In this document: positions 1 to 37,384 of the stretch, in pieces
Position numbering within the stretch: position 1 is the stretch's first letter
Layout: each line of letters opens with the position of its first letter
Source: a virus
Strand: one strand, 5' to 3'
DNA length: 37,784 bases
IMG/VR virus record: IMGVR_UViG_3300048838_000353
Location: 1-37,784 of that record
Notes under the pieces: model-generated
What the model was told of the DNA's origin: nothing
Database searches by the model: none
What the model saw: only the letters and a program-made list of their open reading frames with translations
Translations under genes and position numbers: made by a program

Positions 1-907
1 CCGCGCCGGTGAAGGAGCACGTTTGACGGTCCGAGATGCTCCCGGACGTGTCGCGCACGATCACAACGGGGGGCAGTTCCACCGATAGCAGCGATGGCAG
101 GATGAAGCGGCGTTGCAGGTATCTGCGGTTGGGGCGGGTCCAAGAGTAGTCGTTGCGGGCGCTGCGTTGAATCCAGTCCGCCAGGAGCGTCCGCCAGTCT
201 ACCGGGGGGTGAAGAATCTCGTTCACGAGCCGTTCGGCAAAAGCCGGACACTTCCCCTGATTTTTCGCGTTGCGGGCCGCGGAGATCACTGCGCCTCGCC
301 AGTCGTCTTCCGTATTGCGGTCTTCCTCGGCGTTGCTCGTGCCATCCTCGGGGGGCGCGTCTTCGACCGCGCCACATCCGCCAGGGTCGTCCGATGGCGC
401 GCCGCCTTTTCCCTCTCCGTCTCCGTCTCCCTTGCCTTTGCCTGTGCCTTGCGCCTTGCCTCCAGGTGCGCCCGCGCTGCCTGCCTTGCCTTTCCCCTGC
501 TGGTCGTCGGGGTCGGGTCCAAGCCGGGCGAAAATGTGCTCCGCGCTGTCGTCAATTCCCGGCAGTGCTCCCTTCGGCAGTTTCCATCGGCAGTCCGTGT
601 CCAGAACGTGGTTTACCGCGTGGTCACAAGCCACGTTCCATTTCTTGATACCTCGCGCTCCGCGCCGCCAGGGGTGAAGCAGTGCGCAGTGTAGTACCTC
701 GTGGCATAGAACGGCGCAAAGCTCGTCGTCCGTGATTCCCTCCACAAACGTGGGGTTATATTTGATCCTCGTTCCATCGGTCGCCATAGTCTGTACTGCC
801 TGCGATTCCTCCATTGTAAATCTGACCGCGAGCGCGCCAAAAAAGGGCTGGTCTATGATCAGCCGTATTCTCGCCTTGGTTAGTCTTTTCGCAGTTTCTT
901 GGTTCAT
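1..907 (-). CDS. VWA / HExxH metallopeptidase-like protein (partial, runs off left edge)
   Basis: The frame stays open from ATG 907 to the window edge, giving 302 residues without the C-terminus. A HEVLH motif (residues 69-73, with H78) is the zinc-site signature of the putative metallopeptidase domain found with VWA-like domains (DUF2201 type). A long Gly/Lys/Asp-rich hydrophilic linker follows. Near residue 290 the string VIVRDTSGSIS is a DxSxS MIDAS metal site that opens a von Willebrand A domain. An AAAGAGG ribosome site lies 8 bases before the ATG. It is the last visible gene of a leftward operon behind a MoxR ATPase and a DUF3150-like gene; known MoxR ATPases work with VWA partners, so a joint remodelling or assembly role is inferred. 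Whether the zinc site is catalytic cannot be judged. The family call is firm, the role is not. Confidence 0.85.
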   Translation of the reverse strand, partial: MNQETAKRLTKARIRLIIDQPFFGALAVRFTMEESQAVQTMATDGTRIKYNPTFVEGITDDELCAVLCHEVLHCALLHPWRRGARGIKKWNVACDHAVNHVLDTDCRWKLPKGALPGIDDSAEHIFARLGPDPDDQQGKGKAGSAGAPGGKAQGTGKGKGDGDGEGKGGAPSDDPGGCGAVEDAPPEDGTSNAEEDRNTEDDWRGAVISAARNAKNQGKCPAFAERLVNEILHPPVDWRTLLADWIQRSARNDYSWTRPNRRYLQRRFILPSLLSVELPPVVIVRDTSGSISDRQTCSFTGA

Positions 908-983
908 GGTTTTAACCTCTTTCTCCGGGGCGAAAGCCTCGGCGCTTCGCGTCCGCCAGGGCGGGCGCGTCGCGTCGGTGCTC

Positions 984-1862
984 TCACATAAACTCGGCCA
1001 TTTTGTTCATGATGCGCTTCGCGTCGTCGGCAGCGGTCGCGCGCTCCTGCGGGTATTTCCTGAGCGTCTCCGGGTCGAGCGCGGCCAGTCTCGCCAGGGC
1101 GTCAATCCGAAAAGCTTCTAGGTTGCAGTCGTCGGTAATGTTCAACAGTGGCAGCACTCCGCAAACGTCTCGGATGTTGCCGATCAGCGTGTCGTGGAAC
1201 TTCGCGTCTGCGGTGCTCAAGCGCTCGAAAGCGCGGCTGATTGCGTCGTGAAGCCTCGTCCATGCGTCCATCATCCCGGCCTGAACGGCGCTGCAGGTCG
1301 AGTCGTCTACAAGCCTCCGGATGCGGGCAAGCTCGTGAGAATCCAGGGCGGCGCGGAAGTCGTCGCCCGTCGGCAAGGGACCGTATTTCACCTCGTATGT
1401 GAATTTCCGGCTGATACGATCATCGCTGGGGTAGTCTTTGGGGTTGAACGTGCCGTTGAGACGGGCGCGGGCCTCGTCCACCAGGATGGGATAGCGGTCG
1501 CAAAAGTCGCGCACCTCAACCTGAAACTGATTTTCGTATCGGTGGAGCGTTTCGCGGTACGTGTCGAAAGCTCTCACCGGCAGGATTCGGCTACCGTCGT
1601 CCATCCAGGGCAGGGTTAAGCGGTAGTGCTCGGCGCGGGCCGCGTTGGCGATTGCCTGCACCTTCTTCAGCGCGTCGGGGCTGATTAGGTTCTTGTTCCA
1701 CTTGCCAGCGTCCGCGGCCAGGGCGTGTTCCTCCTGCACCGTGTTTGTCAACGGCTTGTCGAGTCTGCGTGAAGTCCATTGGGTAATGCTCAAGCGGGCA
1801 AGCATCGCGCGCTCCGCCAGGGAGCCCATTGCCGGTTCGGTCGTGGTCGTCGTGGTCGTCAT
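984..1862 (-). CDS. DUF3150-like protein between MoxR ATPase and VWA protein
   Basis: This 292-residue soluble protein begins with a Thr run. It has blocks that recall the DUF3150 family: LPWMDDGSRILP near residue 84, a central FCDRYPILVDEARARL, then KDYPSDD and GDDFRAAL. No enzyme motif, signal peptide or membrane segment is visible. The ATG at 1862 has AGGAGA 9 bases upstream. It lies 89 bases after the ATPase stop and 76 before the VWA start, so the three are probably co-transcribed. In my memory DUF3150 proteins sit beside CobS/MoxR-like ATPases in phages and mobile elements, which agrees with this order; their molecular role is unknown. The name rests on remembered sequence pattern rather than a search. 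Confidence 0.6.
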   Translation of the reverse strand: MTTTTTTTEPAMGSLAERAMLARLSITQWTSRRLDKPLTNTVQEEHALAADAGKWNKNLISPDALKKVQAIANAARAEHYRLTLPWMDDGSRILPVRAFDTYRETLHRYENQFQVEVRDFCDRYPILVDEARARLNGTFNPKDYPSDDRISRKFTYEVKYGPLPTGDDFRAALDSHELARIRRLVDDSTCSAVQAGMMDAWTRLHDAISRAFERLSTADAKFHDTLIGNIRDVCGVLPLLNITDDCNLEAFRIDALARLAALDPETLRKYPQERATAADDAKRIMNKMAEFM

Positions 1863-1951
1863 GGTTCACAGTCTCCTGTATCTGGGGTCGTCCAGGTCCG
1901 GTCCGTCCGGGCCATCCCGTCGCGCTCCGCAGAGCGCTCCGGGGCAGTCCG

Positions 1952-2938
1952 TCAGACGTACTCTCCGTTTTTCGCAACCCACTGCTGCCATGCCTGCGTG
2001 TTGGCGATTCCCTTTTCCCTCCTATAGCAGTCGTTCACGCACGTGGTCTCGACTTCCTTCGATATGCGTTCAACGTACCTCACAATCTGGCCGAAATTTC
2101 GCGTCGTGCATCGCGCCGCGAGTCCTACCGCGCACGCGATTCGGGCGCTCGTTCCAGAGGGGATAGGCGACGTGTCGGGTTGCAGAATGCAGCCATCTAG
2201 GTCCGGCAAGCTGCGGAAGATTTTGAGAAACTCCCGAAACTCAGACGCGCGGCCTTTTCCCACTGCGCCCGCGAGCGTCTCGTCGTCACTCAGTCCTGCT
2301 TGCAATAGATCACTGACGTGTTTCCAGGTGCGCGGGCAGGGCGAGTTTGTAACGTCGGTGGTTGCCCGAAACTCGTGGAGAGCATCGGGGCGGAAGCGTA
2401 GGTAGGCAACCACTTCGGGCGAGATCGAATGGGCATACGCCCATAACGTCCAGTCGTCTAAGTCAACGTCCAAGCTGATAATCGAGTGAAAGCGGCTCTT
2501 GACGGGTTCAATCAGTGCCGATACTGCCGCGCGGTCTTCGCGTCTGTTGGTTGCCGCATAAAAACAGACGTGCGGGGGCAAGTGGTGCTCGCCTACGCGA
2601 TTGGACAAAATCAACTGCATAAGCGCCGCCTGTACTGCGGGCGGGGCCTGTCCCAGGTCGTCGAGTAAGATCGCCAGGGGCTTGCTAGCCTCCATGGCGC
2701 GCCGGAGATCCCCATAGGGCAAAAAGCTGGCGCGTCCGTCTGCCGATGCGTAGGGCAAGCCGCGGGCGTCTACGACATCCCAAGTACTGGGATGCCAGAT
2801 CTCCAGATCAATACCTGCCTCCGCCGCGGCCTGTGCGAATATGTCGCTTTTGCCGACTCCAGGCGGTCCGGCCAGCATGACGCGCAGTCGCTTATCCAGG
2901 CACGTTCGCAGGGTCTTGAGGGCTTGACTCGGTTTCAT
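1952..2938 (-). CDS. MoxR-type AAA+ ATPase
   Basis: A 328-residue AAA+ ATPase of the MoxR / AAA_5 type. Walker A is GPPGVGKS at residues 24-31, Walker B is LAILLDD at 88-94, sensor 1 is N131 in FYAATNR, and a probable arginine finger is R148 in PVKSRF. The C-terminal half should be the helical lid and contains no second enzyme domain. The ATG at 2938 is chosen over an upstream TTG at 2959 because GGAG lies 11 bases before it. It is the first gene of the leftward operon, about 50 bases below a candidate promoter. MoxR ATPases use ATP hydrolysis to remodel or load metal into partner proteins, commonly VWA proteins, and a VWA gene lies two genes downstream. The substrate in this phage is unknown. 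Confidence 0.9.
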   Translation of the reverse strand: MKPSQALKTLRTCLDKRLRVMLAGPPGVGKSDIFAQAAAEAGIDLEIWHPSTWDVVDARGLPYASADGRASFLPYGDLRRAMEASKPLAILLDDLGQAPPAVQAALMQLILSNRVGEHHLPPHVCFYAATNRREDRAAVSALIEPVKSRFHSIISLDVDLDDWTLWAYAHSISPEVVAYLRFRPDALHEFRATTDVTNSPCPRTWKHVSDLLQAGLSDDETLAGAVGKGRASEFREFLKIFRSLPDLDGCILQPDTSPIPSGTSARIACAVGLAARCTTRNFGQIVRYVERISKEVETTCVNDCYRREKGIANTQAWQQWVAKNGEYV

Positions 2939-6935: not shown

Positions 6936-7602
6936 GCAGAAGGTCAGAAACCGCATCGAACAGCTCAAGATCCCATGGCAGCAGTTCGTGGAGATCCGCG
7001 AGCGGTTCGTGAAGGATGGCGTCCCCCGGCAGGAAGCATGGGAGCGGACCGCCCTGGTGTTCCTGGAGGCCGACTTCTGGACCCCCAAGCTCGATCCCCG
7101 CATCCCCGATCTGGGGGACAATCAGGCTCCCGGCCCCGTCGCCATCCCCGTGGCCGAGGAGTCGCAGCCCGCCGAAACCGAGGGCAACGCGCCTGCCAGC
7201 GTCTTCATCAACAAGGCGAAAGCGAACATCCGGCGCGATATTCTGTGGGTCTATGAGAACCTCCACCTGACCGGGGTGCGCGCCAAGAACGCGCCGAGCG
7301 GGGGGGCGTGGGGACTGCTGGTCTGGGCGCGGAAGACCTCCGCCAACGAGGCTTCCTTCATCACCCAGATCCTTTCCAAAGTGATCAGCAAGGACGACGA
7401 CGAAAAAGATTCACGGATGGAAGACGATGATCGAACTGCCGCCGACCTCATTTCGCAGATCAGACGGATTGGACCAGACTCCGTTCATACACCTGTGTCC
7501 GAAAGAGTGGGAGACGAACCTGGAGTATCGCCTTCGTCTCCGGACAGAGGCGGTGTCCTCTCGAAAGATGCAGCAAAGCCTGTGGATATGCTGCAAACGT
7601 GA
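6910..7602 (+). CDS. Probable terminase small subunit
   Basis: A 230-residue protein directly before the large terminase. Residues 8-50 are helical, basic then acidic (KVRNRIEQLKIPWQQFVEIRE and PRQEAWERTALVF), fitting a DNA-binding helical N-terminus. A Pro/Glu-rich linker follows, then a compact region near residues 95-155. This resembles small-terminase architecture, but the identification rests mainly on position. ATG 6910 has GAGG 9 bases upstream. The last 58 residues overlap the large-terminase frame and are low-complexity (SPSSPDRGG), suggesting the functional protein ends earlier. TerS recognises viral DNA and recruits TerL. Confidence 0.5.
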   Translation: MSWPVRINKQKVRNRIEQLKIPWQQFVEIRERFVKDGVPRQEAWERTALVFLEADFWTPKLDPRIPDLGDNQAPGPVAIPVAEESQPAETEGNAPASVFINKAKANIRRDILWVYENLHLTGVRAKNAPSGGAWGLLVWARKTSANEASFITQILSKVISKDDDEKDSRMEDDDRTAADLISQIRRIGPDSVHTPVSERVGDEPGVSPSSPDRGGVLSKDAAKPVDMLQT

Positions 7603-9274
7603 CATCCTCTACTGGGTGAACAGCTTCGTGTTCATCGAGGAGCCACGCGCCGCCAGGGTGCTGCCCTTCATCACCTACCCCTACCAGGACGTGGGCTTTC
7701 TTGAAATGGTCAAGGCGGTGGGAAACTACCCGCTGCTCATGAAGAAGTCCCGCGACATGGGGGTGTCGTGGATGCTGGTGTGCCTGTTCTCGTGGTTCTG
7801 GTTGTTTCACAAGTACTCCACGTTCCTCCTGGGCTCCAGGAAGGAGGAGTACGTTGACTCGCCGGACACGAAGTCTCTCTTCGGGAAGATCCGCTTTTTG
7901 CTCGACCACCTCCCGCCCTGGATGATCCCGAAGCACCGGACCACCTTCAAGCACCTGATCAACACCGAGCGGCACAACAACATCGACGGGGAGGCGAGCA
8001 ACCCGGATTGGGGGCGAGGCGACCGGCGCACCGCCATGGGCATGGACGAGTTCGCTTACTGGCCGGACGACTGGGCAACCCTCGCCGCCACGGACGACGC
8101 CTCGAAGTGCCGGATCTGGGTGAGCACGCCGAACGGGACGCAGACCGCGTTCTACAGCCTGTCGAAGAACCCCGCGGTGCGACAGCTTATCCTGAAGTGG
8201 ACCCTCCACCCCGAGAAGACCCGCGGCCTGTACGCTACCGAGAACGGGGCGCTCAAGATCATCGACCGGGGGTACAACTTCCCCCCGGACTATCCCTTCA
8301 TCCTCGACGGAAAGCTCCGGAGCCCCTGGTACGACGAGATGTGCCGGGAGCGGCAGAACGACCGGGTGCGCATCGGCCAGGAGCTGGACCTGAGCGACTT
8401 CGGGTCCGTCCAGCAGTTCTTCGATGACGAGATGCTGACCAAGTACGCCGCCGAACACGTCGAGCCCCCCCTCCACATCGGGGAGATCGACTATGACCCT
8501 GAAACCCTCGAACCCTCCGGGTGGTCGTCCTCCTCTGGAGGACGATGGAGCCTGTACACCCATTTCGATGCCAGCCAAAAAATGCCAGATGACAGACGGT
8601 ACGTCGTCGCGGCGGACATCGCCGCCGGTACGGGGGCATCAAACTCCGCAATCATCGTTGGAGACTGCCAGACACGCCGCATCGTCGCCACGTTCGTTTC
8701 ACCCTTCGTCACCCCCGAGGCGCTCGGCAGGATGGCTGTAGTCGCCTGCAAGTGGTTCGCAGGCAGCGAAAAAGCGGACGGTGGTGCCCGTCTGACCTGG
8801 GAGACGAACGGCTACGGAGCGATCTTCGGCAAGACGGTCGTGGACGTGATTCGCTACCGGAATCTGGACTATCGCCAGAAGGAGAGCGCGATCACCAAGA
8901 AGCCAACCGACGTGCCCGGCTGGCACTCCTCCCCTGAGAACAAAACTGCACTATTGGGCGAGCTGAGACGGTCGGTCGGCACTCAGCCGCCAGAGATCAT
9001 CATTCCTGCACACATCATCATCGAGGAGATGCGAGAGTTCGTGCATGGCACCAACGGCGTGCCGGAACACACCGGCTCCCTCAACGCGAAAGACGCCTCC
9101 GGAGCAGGAGATGCCCACGGCGATACGGTGATACCCGCGGCGCTCGTGTGCCGCCTGCTGCGAATGGCTCCCAAAGGCGAAACTGCACAAACGCCCAAGG
9201 TACACCCCGACTCGTTCAAGGCCCGCCAGGAGGCCGCGCAGAAAAAGCGGCGGATGGACAAATATTGGTCTTGA
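7427..9274 (+). CDS. terL: Terminase large subunit (packaging ATPase and nuclease)
   Basis: This 615-residue protein powers DNA packaging and cuts the concatemer. The ATPase domain has a viral Walker A-like motif KSRDMGVSW at 107-115, Walker B MGMDEFAYW with D207-E208, and the coupling motif STPNG at 233-237. The RNase H-fold nuclease has acidic residues D397 in VVAADIAAG, E459 in WETNGYG and D562/D566 in GAGDAHGD. The N-terminal segment (ICCKRDILYWVNSFVF) fits the family. ATG 7427 overlaps the upstream gene by 176 bases; an internal ATG at 7568 would shorten this but would cut residues that look genuine. Identification is certain; the exact start is not. Confidence 0.95.
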   Translation: MIELPPTSFRRSDGLDQTPFIHLCPKEWETNLEYRLRLRTEAVSSRKMQQSLWICCKRDILYWVNSFVFIEEPRAARVLPFITYPYQDVGFLEMVKAVGNYPLLMKKSRDMGVSWMLVCLFSWFWLFHKYSTFLLGSRKEEYVDSPDTKSLFGKIRFLLDHLPPWMIPKHRTTFKHLINTERHNNIDGEASNPDWGRGDRRTAMGMDEFAYWPDDWATLAATDDASKCRIWVSTPNGTQTAFYSLSKNPAVRQLILKWTLHPEKTRGLYATENGALKIIDRGYNFPPDYPFILDGKLRSPWYDEMCRERQNDRVRIGQELDLSDFGSVQQFFDDEMLTKYAAEHVEPPLHIGEIDYDPETLEPSGWSSSSGGRWSLYTHFDASQKMPDDRRYVVAADIAAGTGASNSAIIVGDCQTRRIVATFVSPFVTPEALGRMAVVACKWFAGSEKADGGARLTWETNGYGAIFGKTVVDVIRYRNLDYRQKESAITKKPTDVPGWHSSPENKTALLGELRRSVGTQPPEIIIPAHIIIEEMREFVHGTNGVPEHTGSLNAKDASGAGDAHGDTVIPAALVCRLLRMAPKGETAQTPKVHPDSFKARQEAAQKKRRMDKYWS

Positions 9275-28481: not shown

Positions 28482-29900
28482 ATGCCATTCAGACGAACTT
28501 ACAACATCAACCCGCTGGTGAGCGGCCTTGCGCAGTGGGTTGGCTCGTACAACACCGCCAAGGGTGGAAAGCTCGGGGATTACTACGCCCAGCGCAACCT
28601 CACCGACCAGCGCGCCCAGATCGCCCAGCGCGCGCAGACATTCAACCAACTGCATGACATCGGCACGCAGTACATGGCGCAGCAGAACCGGATTGAGCTG
28701 GAGAACCTCAATCACGCGAACGCCATGGCGAAGCTCGATGCTACACGTCAGGCAGGGGTAGACGCCTACTATCAGAAGCAGTACGGGACGGACTATGCGG
28801 GCTTCCTGTCGAGGGCTCGCGATGCCGGAATGTCTCCTGGAGACTTCAAGTCCAGCCTGGACATGAAGAACTACCAGGATCAGGTCAACGCCCGCGCCGC
28901 CGCCCAGAACCTTGAGTATCGCATCCCGGACGACGAGGACACGAAGTCCAGAATCAACTCGCTGCACGAAGAGTTCAACAGCAACGTGGCGGATGGGGTG
29001 TATCGCGAGGAAGAGATCCCGCTTGCCCGCCAGCAGCTTGAGCAGCAGATTTCGGAGCTTCAGCAGCCTCAGCTTCTCCCGAAGAAGCCGCGACCGGCCA
29101 CGGTACAGGAGAAGATGCAGGCCGGTGAGATTTTCCCGGTTCCCGGTGGCTACCTTGCCCTGAACGACAAGGGGGCGATCACTGGGATTCGGATGGCTCC
29201 ACCGTCCGCAGGGTCCGGTGGAAGTGCTGGCTCGAAGGGCAACTTCCTCACGCAGATGGGGTTTGCTGGTCCGACGCAGATGCAGGGACCGGCCCCTGGC
29301 GCTCCTGGTGCCGCCGCAGCCATCCCCATGCAGCAGCCCCCGCCCGCGTCGATGCCAGCGGGTGGCGCGCCGATGGCGATTCCAACGACTCAGCCCGCCG
29401 GAGGGATGCAGCTTCCCGCGGGATCGGCTCAGGCTTCGCAGCAGCAGACGATTGCCGAGCAGCTATACCCGCAGTTCAACATGGAGCGGGGCGGCGTGGA
29501 TTTGTCTCTGGACCCGCAAACGGGAAAATGGGACAAGAATTATAGCAAGCTGGAGATGCGGACCCAGCTCATGCTCAAGGCTATGGAGGCGGGGAAAACG
29601 AACGTCAAAGGCGTGGAGAGCTACGACGACGCGAAGGTACTCAGCTTCTTCAAGATGATGGAGAAGGAAGTCTTCGGAGGAGCCGAAAACTATCAGGCAA
29701 TGCCGCAGATGGGCGCTCCGCAGGGCGGGTCGCCAAGCTCGCAGCCAGCGCCGAGTGCCGGTCAGCCCGGATCGAAGATCCCCGTCTACAACGGCCAAGC
29801 CATGGACGAGACGAGGGACGTTGGGAAGGTGTACTGGGATGCCGACCGGCAGCAGGCGTTCAAATACCTGGGCAACGGTAAGGGAGTCTGGTTGAAATGA
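28482..29900 (+). CDS. Internal virion protein-like, 472 aa
   Basis: AGGAG sits 8 bases before ATG 28482. The N-terminal 120 residues are a Gln/Ala-rich helix region, a Gln/Glu coil follows at about 160-200, and about 245-330 is a low-complexity Ala/Pro/Gln/Met linker that includes IPTTQPAGG. The C-terminal 140 residues are more regular and globular. The stop overlaps the giant gene's ATG (ATGA). Such composition is typical of ejection proteins; the TTQP string echoes the lipoprotein linkers. No enzymatic motif. Confidence 0.65.
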   Translation: MPFRRTYNINPLVSGLAQWVGSYNTAKGGKLGDYYAQRNLTDQRAQIAQRAQTFNQLHDIGTQYMAQQNRIELENLNHANAMAKLDATRQAGVDAYYQKQYGTDYAGFLSRARDAGMSPGDFKSSLDMKNYQDQVNARAAAQNLEYRIPDDEDTKSRINSLHEEFNSNVADGVYREEEIPLARQQLEQQISELQQPQLLPKKPRPATVQEKMQAGEIFPVPGGYLALNDKGAITGIRMAPPSAGSGGSAGSKGNFLTQMGFAGPTQMQGPAPGAPGAAAAIPMQQPPPASMPAGGAPMAIPTTQPAGGMQLPAGSAQASQQQTIAEQLYPQFNMERGGVDLSLDPQTGKWDKNYSKLEMRTQLMLKAMEAGKTNVKGVESYDDAKVLSFFKMMEKEVFGGAENYQAMPQMGAPQGGSPSSQPAPSAGQPGSKIPVYNGQAMDETRDVGKVYWDADRQQAFKYLGNGKGVWLK

Positions 29901-32900
29901 CGCCGTACAACCCCGAGGACGTTTTCGACCTCTCCGATCTTAAGAAGGAGAAGGAGAAGAAGGCGAGCCCGGACACGGTAACGGTGCCCCCGCCGATGGT
30001 GCGCGCGCCTGGTCCCCTGATGAAAGAGCCCGATGGTCAGGTGTTCGCTGTTGCACAGGTGGCTGAGCAGAACCAGCGCCTGAAGAACGCCAACGCGGCG
30101 CTCATTGAGTCCGCCGCGGAACTGGAGGCTCGCAACTGGAGCGGCGAGAACGCAGAGGGGAAGGAGATTGGCTTCGCGGACCTTGACCCGCAGAGCCAGC
30201 AGTCGCATTACAACCGCATCCGCCAGCAGTACGGTCTGGCGTCGAAGGATCTTCAGGGCGAGATCGGGGTCATTGAGAACACCAAGGGTGCTTCCTGGCA
30301 GGGCGTCAAGGAGTCCGCCCCGTTCGTGGGTGGCGTCGAGACGTTCAGGCGGCTGTGGAACGTGAGTCAGGCTGCGGATCGCATCGAGGGCAAGACCGCC
30401 ACGGTCGAGGATTACGAGGCGGTTGCGGGGTTCCAGAAGGATCTTGCGAGGCACAAGCGAGGGAAAAGCCTTGCCGCTGGCGCTGAGGACATCGTTACGC
30501 AGGGAATCCCGTTCGCGATTGAGTACATGATCTCCGCTGGTCTGGTGCCCGCTGGCCGGAAGGTGGCCCAGGAAACGCTGGAGAAGCAGGCTCGCGGGAT
30601 CGTGGAGCGCATGGTAGCGAAAGCAGTGGGCGTCGGAATCAGCTCCGCATACAGGATGCCCGCGATGGGCGGACACGTCCTGGCTGACTACGAGAAGAAC
30701 CGGCTGGGTGAGGTGATCGTTGTTCCGCGCAACGATGGCAGCACGTTCGTTTACAAGAAGGGCGACAATTTCATTCCGGCAATGCTGAAGTCTCTCGGCT
30801 CCAACTACATCGAGCTGTTCAGCGAAGGCGCTGGCGACGTGTTCGACGTGGCTGGTGAAGCCGCGAAAGGCGCGGCGCGACGAATCAAGCCGCTGCGCAT
30901 GGCTGGCGAGAAGCTGGACGACCTCAAGGCGATGGTGCTCAACCGCTACGGAGTGCTCAAGAAGCTGTCGGAGAAGGGGGTTGGTGAGAAGCTCAAGGAG
31001 ATGGGGTGGAACGGAATCCTGAACGAGATGGGCGAGGAGCGCCTGGGCGAGCTGTTGAGGGCGGGCGCGTTCATCGAAGAGTACAAGCCCCCGACCGGCA
31101 AGCAACTGCTCACTGAAGCCATCGGCTTCCCGCTCATGGGCGGCGCGATGCGCATTGCCGGTCGCGCCATGGATCGCTCTGAGTGGCCCGCTGACATGCG
31201 GAAGGCTGCTCTGTCCAACGAGGTGGGCGTTACCGAATGGGCCAAGCAATTCCCGACGCAGGCCGCTGCCTTGAAAGCGAAGGCTGATGCGGGCAAGCTG
31301 TCTGCCAGCGATCTGCACGAGGCGGGTATCACCGACGCGCGTCGCCCCGCCAACCCAAATCAGCGGTGGTCGCAGACGGAACGTGACTGGCTGGGGAAAA
31401 TGATCCAGCAAGTCATGGCCCCGCAAGCGCCCGCCCCACCGGAGAACGCAAATGCCCAAGTCCAAGCAGGCCAAGCCGCCGCAGTCGAAAACGCCCAACC
31501 TGGGAGTCCTCCGCCAAGCGGCCAAAATGTACCGCAAGCTGGAGGGACCGCGGAAGGTGAAACCGGCGAGCCAGACTTCCCACGCATCACGCCTGAAGGC
31601 GGCTCCCAAAGTCCACCGGCTGACGTAGCCAGCGAAGCCGAGATCCAGCCGGGCGACATGGTGAGCTGGAACACCGCCAGCGGCCAGGAGCGGCGGGGCA
31701 AGGTGCTCGCCATCGACGCTGATGGCAGCGTACAGGTAAGGCCGGACGGGGGCGGTCCGCGCTTCAGTCTCGATCCTTCGGTTCTGACCGTTGAGGGCGG
31801 GGAGGAAGCTGCGCCGCCAGCAGAGACGAAGCCGCCCGAGCCCGCTGGGCCAGCGCCTCCCAAAACCCTTGAGGAGGCGGAAGAGAACCTCGCCGTATTC
31901 GAGGGTGTTCAGCAACTCGTTCGCCAGGACTGGCTGGAGGCGTCGAACGATCTCAAGAAGGCGGAGCAAGACCCCAACACCACGCCCGAGCAGCTCAAGC
32001 AGCTCAAGAAGAACGAGCTGGATAGGCGGAAGGCGCTTGAGGAGGCGGCGTTTGAAACAGCCGCAGCCGCACGTCATCGCGACCTACTCCAGATGAACGC
32101 CCGCCAGGGCAAGACCGGCAGCGCGACGGTCGCGCCGCCAACACCTCCACCACCGTCTGAGGAGAAACCAGATGGCACGGAAACCCAAGGGCAAGGGGAA
32201 ACCCAAGCCGAAGTGCTGACGACCGCTTCTGATGCCGGGGGTGGGGCTGTACCGGAGGGGAACCCGGTGCAGACCTCGCCCCAGGCGTCTAAAGAGAAGT
32301 GGCAGATGACGCGGGCCGAGTTCGTCGCCCATCGCCAAAAGCTGATCGACCGATTCAAAGAGTTGTCTGCGAAGCACGGTGGATCTCCGAAATCTGCTGG
32401 CGTTCCAGAGGTAGACGCGGCATTTACTGAGCAGGCGGATTGGGGTGATCTGGACTTCCACAAGTCGTATGTGGCAGGAGCAGTGGCGCGCGGGGAAGCG
32501 GTTCCGGATGAAGTCCTGGCGGATTATCCGAATCTGAAGCGACCCGCGCAGACAATCGATCAGCGGCAGGGGAAGCGTGCCCGCCCCGAGGCTCCCTCCG
32601 TCCCTCAATCAGCCAAGCCAGCGGAGCAGGCGCGCCTTCACGATCTCCTGGAGGGGCTGCGCGCGGACAGCAACGAGCCCGAGCTGAGAATCGCCTACAG
32701 CCAGGACCGCGATCAGTTCTTCGTGATTGCCCCGAAGGGCTTTACGCCGCCGCAGGGCTGGAACCTGAGAGGCTCGACCAAGCAGGGCGACGGGATTCGA
32801 TACAGCGTTCCCGATCTCGACGTGCTGGCCGACCAGATCCGCAAAGAGAAGCAGGCGCAGCGCGAACGCGGGAAGCCATCGAAGAAGCCGCGCACCTTCA

Positions 32901-35900
32901 CTCTGCAATCGCTCAACCGCAAGGTCGAGCAGATCCACGAGAAGTACAAGCTGTTCATCAAGGGTGGGATGTCCGACGACATGGAGCTGGAGGAAACGGA
33001 CGCCTCCGGAGAAATGTCGTACAAAGACTACGGCTACCACTTCATGGACACGCCGCAGGGGCGCTCTGATTACAAGGAGCTGCTGAACGCCCTGGAGGGA
33101 AAGCTCCCCGCAGAATACATCGCGGACATGGTGACGCTCCGAACCGGTCAGAAGTCAGGCGGGGGCATGACCGGCTCTGATGCGATTGGAGCCATTGGCA
33201 TCGATGAAATGGCCGCTTCGGTCATCAAGGGCTACGAGAGCACGAACAGGGAAAGCCGGATCGCCCGCACGCTGGAATGGATGCAGGCGAACCCCGAGAA
33301 GTTGGAACCCGACGAGTTCCGCGCGCTGGTCGAGCGCACGCTCTACACCAACAAGGAGGCCCGCGATGCCGCACAGGGCAAGCGCGTCCGTCTCGTGGAC
33401 GTGTCTACCCTGTCGGTTGGTCAGAAGTTCAAGATCGCAGGCGACGAGTTCGAGGTGAAAGCCATCGACCCGGACACCGGGGAGGTCACGCTGGAGGATG
33501 GTGTTCCGGTCATCATGCCGCCCCATGGCGAGGTGCTGATCGACAACAAGACGCTGACCAAGCCGCCCGCGGGCCAGGAGGAGGGCGACACGTCGTTTGA
33601 CACTAGCACCATGAATCAGCGGCAGGGCCGAACCGTTCAAACGAACTTACTTGGCGAGGCCGAGCCCGAAGCGCCGACCACGGGCGACCAGAAGGGGCTG
33701 GAGTTCGGCGCGGACACCGAGGGCAACCAGCCCTCACCAAGCGGTTGGGTAACACCGGAAGGCAGGCTGCGCCAGGGCAAAGACACCGACTCCGAGGAAA
33801 AGGCCCGGATCAAGGCCGCTGAGGACAAGCTCAAGAAAGACAGCGAAGAGAACGACCAGGGGCTTATGTTCGTCAGCGAGGAGGAGGACGAGCAGGATCT
33901 CCCCGAAGAAGCGGAGATGACCGGCACCGCCAACCGGCTCGGTCCTGGTGAAGTGAAGGCGGGCAATCAGACCGCGCCGCTGCCGGGCAGGGCGAAAGCC
34001 CCGGTTCCTCCGCAGGAGATCGTCCAGGGCTGGTCCAAGGTGTTCGGCGTCACGCTGACGACGGGCGGATACCGCGGGCGGGCGCTGGGGCAGTACCAGA
34101 CCAAGCCCGAGGTGATTCGTACCCGCAACTCGTTCTCGTCTTCACTGGGAACGATCTCCCATGAGGTCGCCCACCATATCGACAAGACCTATCGGCCCCG
34201 CAAGGGCATCAAGCGCAAGATGCAGACCGAGCTGGCCGGTATGGACTACGACCCGAAGCAGCGCCGCACGTTCGAGGGCTTCGCGGAGTTCATTCGCAAG
34301 TGGCTCACCGAGAACGAGGTGGGCGAATCGAAGAAGCGGGCTCCGCTGTTCTACGATTACTTCTTCAATACCTTCCTGCCCGCACACCCGGACCTCCAGA
34401 AAAAACTGAACGACGCGCGCGAGCGTGTCGAGGAGTACCGCAGGCAAGATCCGAAGCAGGCGATGGAGGCGGCGATCAGTTGGGACGGGAAGAAGTTCTC
34501 TGGCCGGTCCGTGCGGGATCGGCTGGCCCGCGCCCTCAACCGCCTGTCACGCTGGTGGTACGACTCGCAGGGCATCGTCTTGCAGATGGTGAAGGCCGGT
34601 GACCGCAAAAAGGCTCTGCGCCCCGGAGAAGACCCGTACAAGTGGATGCAAGTGCTCACGCACGCCTCCGCGGCCATGGCGCGAGACGCAATCGATGATG
34701 GCGTATGGTCGCTGGAGACGGGCAACCGCATCGGCCCCGCGGTCCGCGATGCGTTCGAGGTGCTCAACTACGACGGAAAGCTGGACAAGCAGCGCCTGAA
34801 AGACTGGACGATGTACCTCGCGGCGCGTCACGCCAGGGAGATGTGGGCTCAGGACCGCAACCCAGGGGTCGAGGAGCGATACGCAGAAGCGTACTACCAG
34901 GGTCACAAGAACGATCCGGGATTTGAGCAGGCCGCTGTCCTCTTCACGGAGTTCCACAAGGCGCTGGTGGTGATGGTTGCAGAGGTCGGGCGTCTCGATG
35001 GAGAGTCGCTGAAGAACATTCTGCAAGCGTTCCCCGCCTATGTGCCCATGCAGCGCGTGCTTGAGGACGAGCGCGTGAGCAGCTCGACCGGCGGCGGGCG
35101 CGGAGTCGCGAACGCCAGGAACCCCGTGCGCCGCATGTCCGAAGAAGGCAGCGGTGCGCAGATCATCGACCCGCTCGCGGTCACCATGTCGATGGCGGAA
35201 TCCTTCTATCTGGCCGCGGCTCAGACGATGGCTGCGCGTCGCGTGGTGGAGTACGCCGAGTCGCGTGAGGGCATGGGAGACTATGTGTCTCCGGTTGATC
35301 CGCCTCAAGACGTAATGCAGACCGAGCTGGGCAATCTGGCTTCGCAACTCAAGGATGCCGGGGTGGACCTGACGGGCATCGACCTGACGACGATGCTCAC
35401 GATTGCGCGTGCGTCCAACGTCTACAACGGGGACAAGCCCTACATCGTCATCTACAAGGGTGGCAAGCCCAAGTGGTATCGGGTACATCCCGATCTGTGG
35501 TACGCGCTGAAAGACATCGCGCCCTACCAGTTGCCTGCGGGGATCGAATCCACGTTGCCGGGCAAGGCGATGGTCGGAGCCACGAAGCTGAAGCGGCTTG
35601 GTGCTACCGAGCTGCGCCCATCGTTCGGTCTGCTCATCAACCCCTCGCGAGACTTCTTTACCTACGCGATTCGTACCCAGGGCAACTCCGCGACAGCGCC
35701 GTTCCGGCTTCTGAAGTCGTTTGCCCACGAGATGATGAATGGCTGGCTGAAGGCGACCGGCAGGGGCGAAGATCCCATGATCCGCCTCTACAACCAATAC
35801 GGCGGATACATGGCGGGATTCATCGGGCAGGACTACGCGAAGTCGAAGGACGTCGCAGGCGACCTGATGAACGACGTTCGTAACCAGGGCTGGAAGAACT

Positions 35901-37384
35901 ACCTTAAACACCCCGTCGAGCTGCTGCGCAACATCTTCAGCGTGTTTGAGAAGACCCCGCGACTCGCTGAGTTCGAGATGATCCTGAAGCGGAATGGGTA
36001 CACCAGGGCGGACCTGAACGCGGGTAGAACGCCGCCTCCGGGTCTGATCGTGGAGGCAATGTACGCTGGCGCGTCGGTCACCACCAACTTCAAGCGGGCC
36101 GGTGCCGCCGGTCGTGTGCTGAACAAGATCAGCGCCTACAGCAACGCCAAGATCCAGGACATCGTAGACGATTGGCGCGTGGCCCAGGCGCATCCGGGCC
36201 GGACGCTGCTCCGCGGCACGCTCTGGCTGACGCTCCCGAGCCTGTTCCTGTGGCTGATGAACAAGGATGAGGACTGGTATCGGGAGCTTCCCGCCTGGAG
36301 GAAGCTGGCTGGCTGGAACCCGACGAAGGGCGTCTTCATTCCCAGCCCGTTCATGCTGGGGATGGTCTTCGCGCATCTGCCCATTGCCGCCCTCGACAGC
36401 TCGTATCGGAAAGACCCGACCGCGATCAACGACTGGCTGGGTCAGTTGGGCGACGAGTACGGAATGAGCGGCGACCCCAAGAAGATGGTCAACAACGTGG
36501 TCCGATTCGCGATGCCCGACCTCCTGGAGCCCGCCATGGAGGCTTACGTCGCAGAAGCGGACTGGCGGAACAAGCCGATTGAGACGCAGGCCCAGAAGGG
36601 GCTTCCTCCTGACCAGCGGTTCACTGAACGCACGACGCCCGCCGCCAAGTATTTCGGGTGGCTGTTCAACCAGAGCCCCATGAAGATCGACCACATGATC
36701 GGCGGGCACTTCCCGCTGGGCCGCGACATTCTCAACATCACCCAGCAGGGGATCTCCAAAGCCCTGGGCACCAGCCGAGTGACGCCCTACAGCCGCGCCC
36801 GGTCCATAGACGACTTTTATCAGGCGGTTACCAAAGCCGAGGAGGACTACAACGGGGCTCGCCAGAAGAAGCTGATGGGCGGACCCGAGGTGTCCCAGGA
36901 GGTGGCGGACCGTCAGTTCGAGCTGACCAAGTATGCGGACCTGATGGCGTCCCTCCGCAATGCCCGGACCGCCGCGGGCGACGACGAAGCCATGAAGCAG
37001 TCCATCGACGCTTACATGGGGGGCCTGTCGCGTGCTGCGCTGGGCCGGGAGGAGCTTGGGGACTATCCGAACCCCCTGAGGGACCGGATGGCCCCGGAGC
37101 CCGTCAGGAAGGCTGTGGACGAGTTCCTGGGGGCTCGCCTGGACCAGTTGACAGACCCCGGACCGGCCAAGCGGAAGCCGGGCGAGACCGAGGAGGAGTG
37201 GGACGCCAGGGACCAAGCCGCTGCCAAGAACGCGAAGCGGGCGGAGCCATTCATTCGCAGCGCAAACCTTGATGATGACTACGTTTGGGAGCTTATCCAG
37301 GCCAGGGGGCTCAAGATGGGGCTGCGGTCCAGCAGCTTCGGAGCCCGGTATCAGCGCTACCTCGCGTGGAAACGCGGGGAATAG
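29897..37384 (+). CDS. Giant polyvalent virion protein (zincin motif, LPD38-like C-terminus), 2495 aa
   Basis: This single frame fills 7.5 kb. Order: helical N-terminal region (1-520) with hydrophobic patches; Ala/Pro/Gln linkers (about 515-580, 740-780); an SH3-like element (about 584-630); a charged region; a small beta element near 1165-1220; acidic linkers (about 1255-1345); a zinc peptidase region with HEVAHH at 1422-1427 and a possible third ligand in EGFAEF (1460-1464); a long helical region; and a hydrophobic LRGTLWLTLPSLFLWLM segment at about 2102 followed by ELPAW, resembling the LPD38 domain of polyvalent proteins. Such proteins travel with phage DNA and may digest peptidoglycan or modify host targets. 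Four RQG[KR] strings mark linker regions. I see no RNA polymerase motifs. Confidence 0.8.
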   Translation: MTPYNPEDVFDLSDLKKEKEKKASPDTVTVPPPMVRAPGPLMKEPDGQVFAVAQVAEQNQRLKNANAALIESAAELEARNWSGENAEGKEIGFADLDPQSQQSHYNRIRQQYGLASKDLQGEIGVIENTKGASWQGVKESAPFVGGVETFRRLWNVSQAADRIEGKTATVEDYEAVAGFQKDLARHKRGKSLAAGAEDIVTQGIPFAIEYMISAGLVPAGRKVAQETLEKQARGIVERMVAKAVGVGISSAYRMPAMGGHVLADYEKNRLGEVIVVPRNDGSTFVYKKGDNFIPAMLKSLGSNYIELFSEGAGDVFDVAGEAAKGAARRIKPLRMAGEKLDDLKAMVLNRYGVLKKLSEKGVGEKLKEMGWNGILNEMGEERLGELLRAGAFIEEYKPPTGKQLLTEAIGFPLMGGAMRIAGRAMDRSEWPADMRKAALSNEVGVTEWAKQFPTQAAALKAKADAGKLSASDLHEAGITDARRPANPNQRWSQTERDWLGKMIQQVMAPQAPAPPENANAQVQAGQAAAVENAQPGSPPPSGQNVPQAGGTAEGETGEPDFPRITPEGGSQSPPADVASEAEIQPGDMVSWNTASGQERRGKVLAIDADGSVQVRPDGGGPRFSLDPSVLTVEGGEEAAPPAETKPPEPAGPAPPKTLEEAEENLAVFEGVQQLVRQDWLEASNDLKKAEQDPNTTPEQLKQLKKNELDRRKALEEAAFETAAAARHRDLLQMNARQGKTGSATVAPPTPPPPSEEKPDGTETQGQGETQAEVLTTASDAGGGAVPEGNPVQTSPQASKEKWQMTRAEFVAHRQKLIDRFKELSAKHGGSPKSAGVPEVDAAFTEQADWGDLDFHKSYVAGAVARGEAVPDEVLADYPNLKRPAQTIDQRQGKRARPEAPSVPQSAKPAEQARLHDLLEGLRADSNEPELRIAYSQDRDQFFVIAPKGFTPPQGWNLRGSTKQGDGIRYSVPDLDVLADQIRKEKQAQRERGKPSKKPRTFTLQSLNRKVEQIHEKYKLFIKGGMSDDMELEETDASGEMSYKDYGYHFMDTPQGRSDYKELLNALEGKLPAEYIADMVTLRTGQKSGGGMTGSDAIGAIGIDEMAASVIKGYESTNRESRIARTLEWMQANPEKLEPDEFRALVERTLYTNKEARDAAQGKRVRLVDVSTLSVGQKFKIAGDEFEVKAIDPDTGEVTLEDGVPVIMPPHGEVLIDNKTLTKPPAGQEEGDTSFDTSTMNQRQGRTVQTNLLGEAEPEAPTTGDQKGLEFGADTEGNQPSPSGWVTPEGRLRQGKDTDSEEKARIKAAEDKLKKDSEENDQGLMFVSEEEDEQDLPEEAEMTGTANRLGPGEVKAGNQTAPLPGRAKAPVPPQEIVQGWSKVFGVTLTTGGYRGRALGQYQTKPEVIRTRNSFSSSLGTISHEVAHHIDKTYRPRKGIKRKMQTELAGMDYDPKQRRTFEGFAEFIRKWLTENEVGESKKRAPLFYDYFFNTFLPAHPDLQKKLNDARERVEEYRRQDPKQAMEAAISWDGKKFSGRSVRDRLARALNRLSRWWYDSQGIVLQMVKAGDRKKALRPGEDPYKWMQVLTHASAAMARDAIDDGVWSLETGNRIGPAVRDAFEVLNYDGKLDKQRLKDWTMYLAARHAREMWAQDRNPGVEERYAEAYYQGHKNDPGFEQAAVLFTEFHKALVVMVAEVGRLDGESLKNILQAFPAYVPMQRVLEDERVSSSTGGGRGVANARNPVRRMSEEGSGAQIIDPLAVTMSMAESFYLAAAQTMAARRVVEYAESREGMGDYVSPVDPPQDVMQTELGNLASQLKDAGVDLTGIDLTTMLTIARASNVYNGDKPYIVIYKGGKPKWYRVHPDLWYALKDIAPYQLPAGIESTLPGKAMVGATKLKRLGATELRPSFGLLINPSRDFFTYAIRTQGNSATAPFRLLKSFAHEMMNGWLKATGRGEDPMIRLYNQYGGYMAGFIGQDYAKSKDVAGDLMNDVRNQGWKNYLKHPVELLRNIFSVFEKTPRLAEFEMILKRNGYTRADLNAGRTPPPGLIVEAMYAGASVTTNFKRAGAAGRVLNKISAYSNAKIQDIVDDWRVAQAHPGRTLLRGTLWLTLPSLFLWLMNKDEDWYRELPAWRKLAGWNPTKGVFIPSPFMLGMVFAHLPIAALDSSYRKDPTAINDWLGQLGDEYGMSGDPKKMVNNVVRFAMPDLLEPAMEAYVAEADWRNKPIETQAQKGLPPDQRFTERTTPAAKYFGWLFNQSPMKIDHMIGGHFPLGRDILNITQQGISKALGTSRVTPYSRARSIDDFYQAVTKAEEDYNGARQKKLMGGPEVSQEVADRQFELTKYADLMASLRNARTAAGDDEAMKQSIDAYMGGLSRAALGREELGDYPNPLRDRMAPEPVRKAVDEFLGARLDQLTDPGPAKRKPGETEEEWDARDQAAAKNAKRAEPFIRSANLDDDYVWELIQARGLKMGLRSSSFGARYQRYLAWKRGE
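31452..31628 (+). CDS. Candidate nested basic ORF inside the giant gene, 58 aa
   Basis: In the +1 frame relative to the giant gene, GGAG (31441-31444) lies 7 bases before ATG 31452 and the frame closes at TAG 31626-31628. The product is strongly basic (MPKSKQAKPPQSK..., then KMYRKLEGPRKVK). It coincides with a low-complexity Ala/Gln/Gly/Pro linker of the main protein (about residues 519-577), where few constraints would oppose a second gene. It could also be a compositional echo of that linker. No family recognised; translation unproven. Confidence 0.35.
   Translation: MPKSKQAKPPQSKTPNLGVLRQAAKMYRKLEGPRKVKPASQTSHASRLKAAPKVHRLT
32172..32219 (+). CDS. Candidate nested mini-ORF inside the giant gene, 15 aa
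   Basis: GAGGAG (32159-32164) precedes ATG 32172 by 7 bases, and the frame ends TGA 32217-32219. The peptide MARKPKGKGKPKPKC is in the same +1 frame as the nested ORF at 31452 and also falls in a low-complexity linker. The Lys/Pro alternation is partly forced by the ETQGQGETQ coding above it, so chance is a real option. Confidence 0.2.
   Translation: MARKPKGKGKPKPKC

Follow-up and report, generated by a model that had tools for sequence, protein, structure and literature searches.

The three genes at the left end of this viral DNA encode a MoxR-type AAA+ ATPase, a DUF3150-like protein and a metallopeptidase-VWA protein (MPT-VWA). They are a real unit of three genes, found in phages, in conjugative plasmids and near the genes of conjugative transposons. 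The trio is tentatively read, with a probability of about 0.4, as a three-part ATP-driven remodelling machine of mobile elements, with a proposed target in the newly invaded cell, which may aid establishment. The window is the whole stretch of DNA that was analysed, 37,784 nucleotides in length. Features of the unit are as follows.

1952..2938, minus strand: MoxR-type AAA+ ATPase, 328 aa, first gene of the unit (PF07728 AAA_5; phrog_1297; alignments A3/A4).
984..1862, minus strand: DUF3150-like protein, 292 aa (PF11348, E 0.0054; model with pLDDT 94.7; BFVD match; hhalign).
2..907, minus strand: metallopeptidase (PF13203)-VWA protein, MPT-VWA (PF13203, E 3e-52; phrog_1314; alignments A2/A5).
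689..703, minus strand: HEVLH zinc-binding/catalytic motif, residues 69-73 of MPT-VWA (alignments A2/A5).
38..52, minus strand: MIDAS motif DTSGS, residues 286-290, in the VWA domain of MPT-VWA (survey of relatives).

The three ORFs are co-directional, on the minus strand, with gaps of 89 and 76 bases, in agreement with the single leftward unit of the preliminary description. The separation from virion genes claimed there is also borne out: the gene of the terminase large subunit (7427-9274) and a possible major head protein gene lie on the plus strand, opposite to the trio. The claim that the unit has its own promoter was not supported. A consensus scan found no promoter upstream of MoxR; the lone site lies inside the MPT gene and is at chance level. 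The terminator scan of the window was likewise at chance level. No relatives of the window virus were found by a pattern search via the terminase, and a PF04466 terminase search of six viral records, MinM2 and N4 gave no match and was uninformative. At 29897-37384 (plus strand) the window encodes a protein of 2495 aa with an LPD38 ('large polyvalent protein') domain (E 9e-19). It shows distant similarity to large phage proteins, DarB-like ones among them, and is a candidate injected polyvalent protein.

The ATPase matches PF07728 AAA_5 above the cut-off (24.4 bits against 22) and belongs to phrog_1297 of PHROGs (E 5.9e-72). Walker A (GPPGVGKS, at about 2846-2869) and Walker B (LLDD, at about 2657-2674) were correctly recognised earlier; the P-loop and Walker B residues are conserved across relatives (alignments A3/A4). 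The AAA+ core has a genetically linked VWA partner, MPT-VWA being adjacent in the window and in most relatives. The ATPase is matched by 602 phage records. In the MoxR tree, a quick tree with many open forks, the window is placed in a supported clade of 56 rows, in which trios from phages, plasmids and chromosomes stand mixed, and the N4-like ATPases fall outside this clade. Phages, plasmids and chromosomal elements are intermixed in the tree, with at least 14 changes of element type. The window ATPase is matched in Pseudoalteromonas phage pYD6-A (15604-17465) across two adjacent ATPase annotations, possibly a split or duplicated gene.

The match of MPT-VWA to PF13203 reaches 178 bits against a cut-off of 23.2, and the protein belongs to phrog_1314 of PHROGs (E 8.8e-62). 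Thus two of the three genes exceed the cut-offs of the profiles proposed for them. The protein consists of an N-terminal zincin-like metallopeptidase, a linker rich in glycine, lysine and aspartate, and a C-terminal VWA domain. HEVLH and DTSGS are both present in it, as first described, and a further conserved His stands at residue 78. The gene is cut by the end of the contig (base 1) just after the first MIDAS motif, DxSxS, so the VWA domain is incomplete and the first MIDAS motif alone is seen in the window. Full-length relatives carry the whole VWA domain, including the later MIDAS T and D. Phage records matching the window peptidase number 307. Both phrog_1314 and RefSeq phage records (for example NC_008720 gp25) label the family 'HNH endonuclease'; the protein shows HExxH and MIDAS, and the label is probably a propagated mislabel. 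The peptidase-VWA gene is in two fragments at loci L028 (11084-12121) and L046 (1423-2670), perhaps through frameshift or decay.

The catalytic Glu of HExxH is kept in 105 of 113 scored relatives, the second and third His of the peptidase site in 113 of 113, and the MIDAS D, S and S in 108 of 109. Nine loci have an altered HExxH and an intact MIDAS (L004, L005, L006, L060, L062, L063, L030, L032, L033): one small phage clade of five loci, two of them from the same contig, and four phage, plasmid-like or chromosomal loci. Since the alteration occurs across several groups, cutting would not be universal. The MIDAS is near-universal and HExxH is sometimes lost, which suggests that the remodelling core is more constant than the cutting site. 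The peptidase domain is the probable protease arm of the machine.

The middle protein of the window matches PF11348 below the curated cut-off (16.5 bits against 24.9; E 0.0054). Counting this protein, 19 of the 39 aligned family members (alignment A7) match this profile, the best at 6e-9. Its AlphaFold model (pLDDT 94.7, pTM 0.88) predicts a mixed helix/strand fold with long helices. The best viral structural matches of the model in BFVD are phage proteins, the top one named DUF3150 (TM 0.86). The family matches and the model uphold the earlier DUF3150-like assignment. Profile comparison by hhalign of the window family with the DUF3150 of pCAR1 and R478 gave 89.5% (E 2e-6), which places the window protein in the same wider family as the plasmid DUF3150. 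Matches to the DUF3150 of the window come from only three phage records, and a direct scan of IMG/VR with this protein gave no matches. DUF3150 was considered as an already solved fold and this was rejected: the model has no PDB match at E 0.001, and VIA-align Z values of up to 8.9 concern mostly the helical half and lie within the helical-bundle background. The lack of a solved-fold match does not make the modelled DUF3150 a new fold. General Pfam profiles, applied to the 39 middle-gene members, gave no match to a STAND family.

In one phage group another gene takes the middle place. It was rejected as a divergent DUF3150 (profile comparison 0.1%) and has its own family, Nmad5, assigned in eight of nine members (best 7.6e-6). 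The Nmad5-family gene sits between MoxR and MPT-VWA in L073, L074, L083, L089, L090, L091, L094, L100 and L132. This suggests that the third component is exchangeable. A further Nmad5-like gene, more distantly related, lies close by in six of the nine loci. In Dhillonvirus a point mutation of nmad5 gives escape from Tmn and deletion of nmad5 does not (PMC11846954); Nmad5 as an anti-defence gene thus has no clean support.

The trio recurs, so that neither of the two outcomes named in the preliminary description as refuting it came about. With MoxR as the starting point, scans yielded 37 genomic loci and 80 more viral ones. MoxR and DUF3150 occur together in 57 loci, all co-directional (median gap 138 bp), and DUF3150 and MPT-VWA in 53 loci, all on the same strand (median gap 50 bases), seed loci being counted in both. 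The full trio is present in 24 of the 37 genomic loci; several of the remaining loci are cut by contig ends. A search that started from DUF3150 found it in 4 of 197 and 31 of 299 genomes, in the families of a Chitinophaga and a Paraburkholderia genome, respectively. The new loci, judged on fetched stretches of <4 kb, have MPT-VWA alongside in 31 of 31 and MoxR in 28 of 31. Many phages carry the MoxR/MPT-VWA pair only, among them N4 (gp24/gp25), phage G, PA5oct and Phosso. The N4-like and jumbo phages have no recognisable DUF3150, so the putative adaptor is not universal.

Outside phages the trio is carried by plasmids such as pBcn842-1 and P. dioscoreae pIII, which are conjugative or mobilizable elements. 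In both it lies directly upstream of genes of a VirB11-type ATPase, VirB2-4 and a TraI domain; in pIII a coupling protein gene is also located downstream of the trio. VirB4 lies 3.9-5.4 kb downstream of the trio and on its strand in 20 of 30 Burkholderiaceae loci, a placement with a chance of about 0.1% per locus, the loci being related and not independent. In Bacteroidota the conjugative-transposon gene TraM is found on the same strand, 5-20 kb off, in seven of ten DUF3150 loci; two others have no TraM on the same contig, and G108 was left out of this comparison. TraG, TraJ and DUF4138 occur in the sampled Bacteroidota neighbourhoods. The trio is also present, with no transfer genes in view, in plasmids of C. 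taiwanensis, Simplicispira, Variovorax and Rhodovastum, and some carriers are not typed as mobilizable. The 'independent phage machine' of the preliminary description is therefore too narrow. Because the trio sits by the transfer genes of plasmids and transposons, its work probably goes beyond virion construction; nothing in the window speaks as strongly against a role restricted to the virion as the presence in conjugative elements does.

Distant plasmid relatives have the same gene order. The operons of pCAR1 (ORF101-103) and R478 encode MoxR, DUF3150 and VWA, as in the window (PMC2642839). Their VWA proteins, 604-668 aa, have HExxH at residues 57 and 70 and MIDAS nearer the C-terminus, which is the layout of the window protein. 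They are very distant: the VWA proteins have no significant match to the MPT profile, and the MoxR proteins match that of the window at E 2e-5 and 9e-4. A study of pCAR1 in 2009 noted MoxR and VWA, conserved in R478, Rts1, SXT and R391, and proposed that they take part in transfer (PMC2642839). Plasmid records with DUF3150 of the R478 type number 1980 (1776 typed conjugative), and those with the pCAR1 type 1118 (969 conjugative); clinical plasmids are heavily sampled in these counts, and the two sets possibly overlap. An IncC plasmid copy (L186, 5980-9138) has DUF3150 and VWA and no adjacent MoxR gene. SXT mutants deleted for s067, s068 or s070 lost no more than 10-fold in transfer (PMC2791158), which is relevant if these genes are the counterparts of the trio.

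The proposed mechanism is as follows. By analogy with NorQD, the MoxR ring would bind the VWA domain, and ATP hydrolysis would move the VWA domain against the tethered zincin domain. The window protein has the zincin in the place of the NorQD N-terminal domain, and its linker is long and polar; a movement of this kind could thus bring a target to the zincin. DUF3150 may be the adaptor that selects or holds the target, and the zincin would cut it in most copies. The most likely target would be a protein of the newly invaded cell, the inactivation of which would help the incoming DNA to establish. A host-directed target would explain the presence of the trio in both phages and conjugative elements; inactivation of a host defence by the trio is possible. 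A broader statement is rather unlikely: that one family of ATP-driven chaperone-proteases serves tailed phages, conjugative plasmids and conjugative transposons alike as a weapon for establishment, in which the middle protein (DUF3150, or an Nmad5-family protein in one phage group) selects the invaded-cell protein to be pulled apart or cut.

Since plasmids and transposons do not form virions, the trio would serve either a general assembly of export complexes or a need after entry. As an assembly chaperone-protease it would act on a large complex of the element itself, the virion or tail or the conjugation channel; MoxR-VWA would remodel a structural subunit and the zincin would trim it. This extends the proposal published for the phage pair (PMC7824862) and is the chief alternative, credible if doubtful. 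A precedent exists in ATV p618/p892, for which a role in tail development was proposed, the MoxR protein being a major virion component that interacts with virion proteins (PMC4124505), and the PA5oct ATPase record is annotated ESI-MS/MS. The type IV secretion genes immediately neighbouring the trio on plasmids fit assembly as well as they fit a host-directed target. However, the neighbouring transfer systems are of differing types and unlike virions, which makes a common substrate hard to see. The N4 pair is expressed in the middle phase, some carriers have no transfer genes nearby, and the SXT deletions in the corresponding region are mild in effect (PMC2791158); for these reasons a need after entry is modestly ahead of assembly. 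The lead is small.

Less probable by far is a chaperone that inserts a metal cofactor into, or activates, a metalloenzyme of the element or the host, as NorQD, CoxDE and CobST do, the HExxH domain carrying or delivering the metal without cutting. MoxR-VWA partners with known function often insert metals, and the second and third His are always kept, even where the catalytic Glu is lost; against this, the Glu is kept in most copies and the neighbourhoods inspected hold no metalloenzyme gene shared beside the trio across carriers. A conflict system that the element carries to counter rival phages or plasmids would follow the logic of the bacterial ternary systems, MoxR with a peptidase-bearing vWA protein and a third component (PMC7159879, PMC12839542), and is the least probable reading: the neighbourhoods inspected show neither a VMAP nor an FtsH component, although an iSTAND-type component is conceivable (the window's own record ends beside the trio), PADLOC defence-system models gave no meaningful match for any of the three genes, and core genes of the virulent N4-like family are unlikely to be defence genes.

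The MoxR/peptidase-VWA pair in phages (PMC7824862) and the plasmid operon, noted in 2009 (PMC2642839), were already known. In the open-licence literature searched, the term DUF3150 was not found, nor were the DUF3150 link between the groups, the proximity of the metallopeptidase form to conjugation genes and the distribution of active-site losses. Connecting the N4 gp24/gp25 core genes, the plasmid DUF3150-VWA operons and the virion-less carriers narrows the possible function. DUF3150-VWA operons are present in thousands of conjugative plasmid records (IncHI2, IncC and others), and function can be tested in two laboratory systems, N4 in E. coli K-12 and pCAR1 in P. putida KT2440.

In NorQD, RavA-ViaA and CobS-CobT a MoxR-type ring acts with a MIDAS protein, as proposed for the window trio. 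These systems are not known to have a fused PF13203-type peptidase or a DUF3150 protein, and their known substrates are housekeeping ones. In NorQD the MoxR-type ring takes up a finger of the VWA protein, and VWA turns against the N-terminal domain as ATP is hydrolysed (PMC13036017). With ATV p618/p892, this supports as a sound analogy the initial view of MoxR and a VWA protein as partners in remodelling targets.

The preliminary description took the trio to have no described function in phages; this calls for correction. Group 2.2 jumbo phages are reported to carry a MoxR/metallopeptidase-vWA pair, for which a part in virion assembly was proposed (Viruses 2021; PMC7824862). As in the window, MoxR stands beside a vWA protein with an N-terminal metallopeptidase domain, and homology of the window MoxR and MPT-VWA to the jumbo type was aligned on proteins of phage G, PA5oct and Phosso. 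The window differs in having DUF3150 between the two, whereas no third gene is described for the jumbo pair (PMC7824862); its MoxR is on a different branch, one common to plasmids and transposons. N4 gp24/gp25, core genes of Schitoviridae expressed as middle and not late genes (PMC4193335), encode a homologous ATPase and HExxH-VWA protein, adjacent and on one strand. They lack DUF3150, and the N4 MoxR is 26% identical to that of the window. MoxR-vWA ternary conflict systems of the VMAP, iSTAND and FtsH types combine MoxR, a vWA protein with an effector or peptidase domain and a third component (PMC7159879, PMC12839542). In the window trio, by comparison, the third component is DUF3150 and the carriers are phages and conjugative elements.
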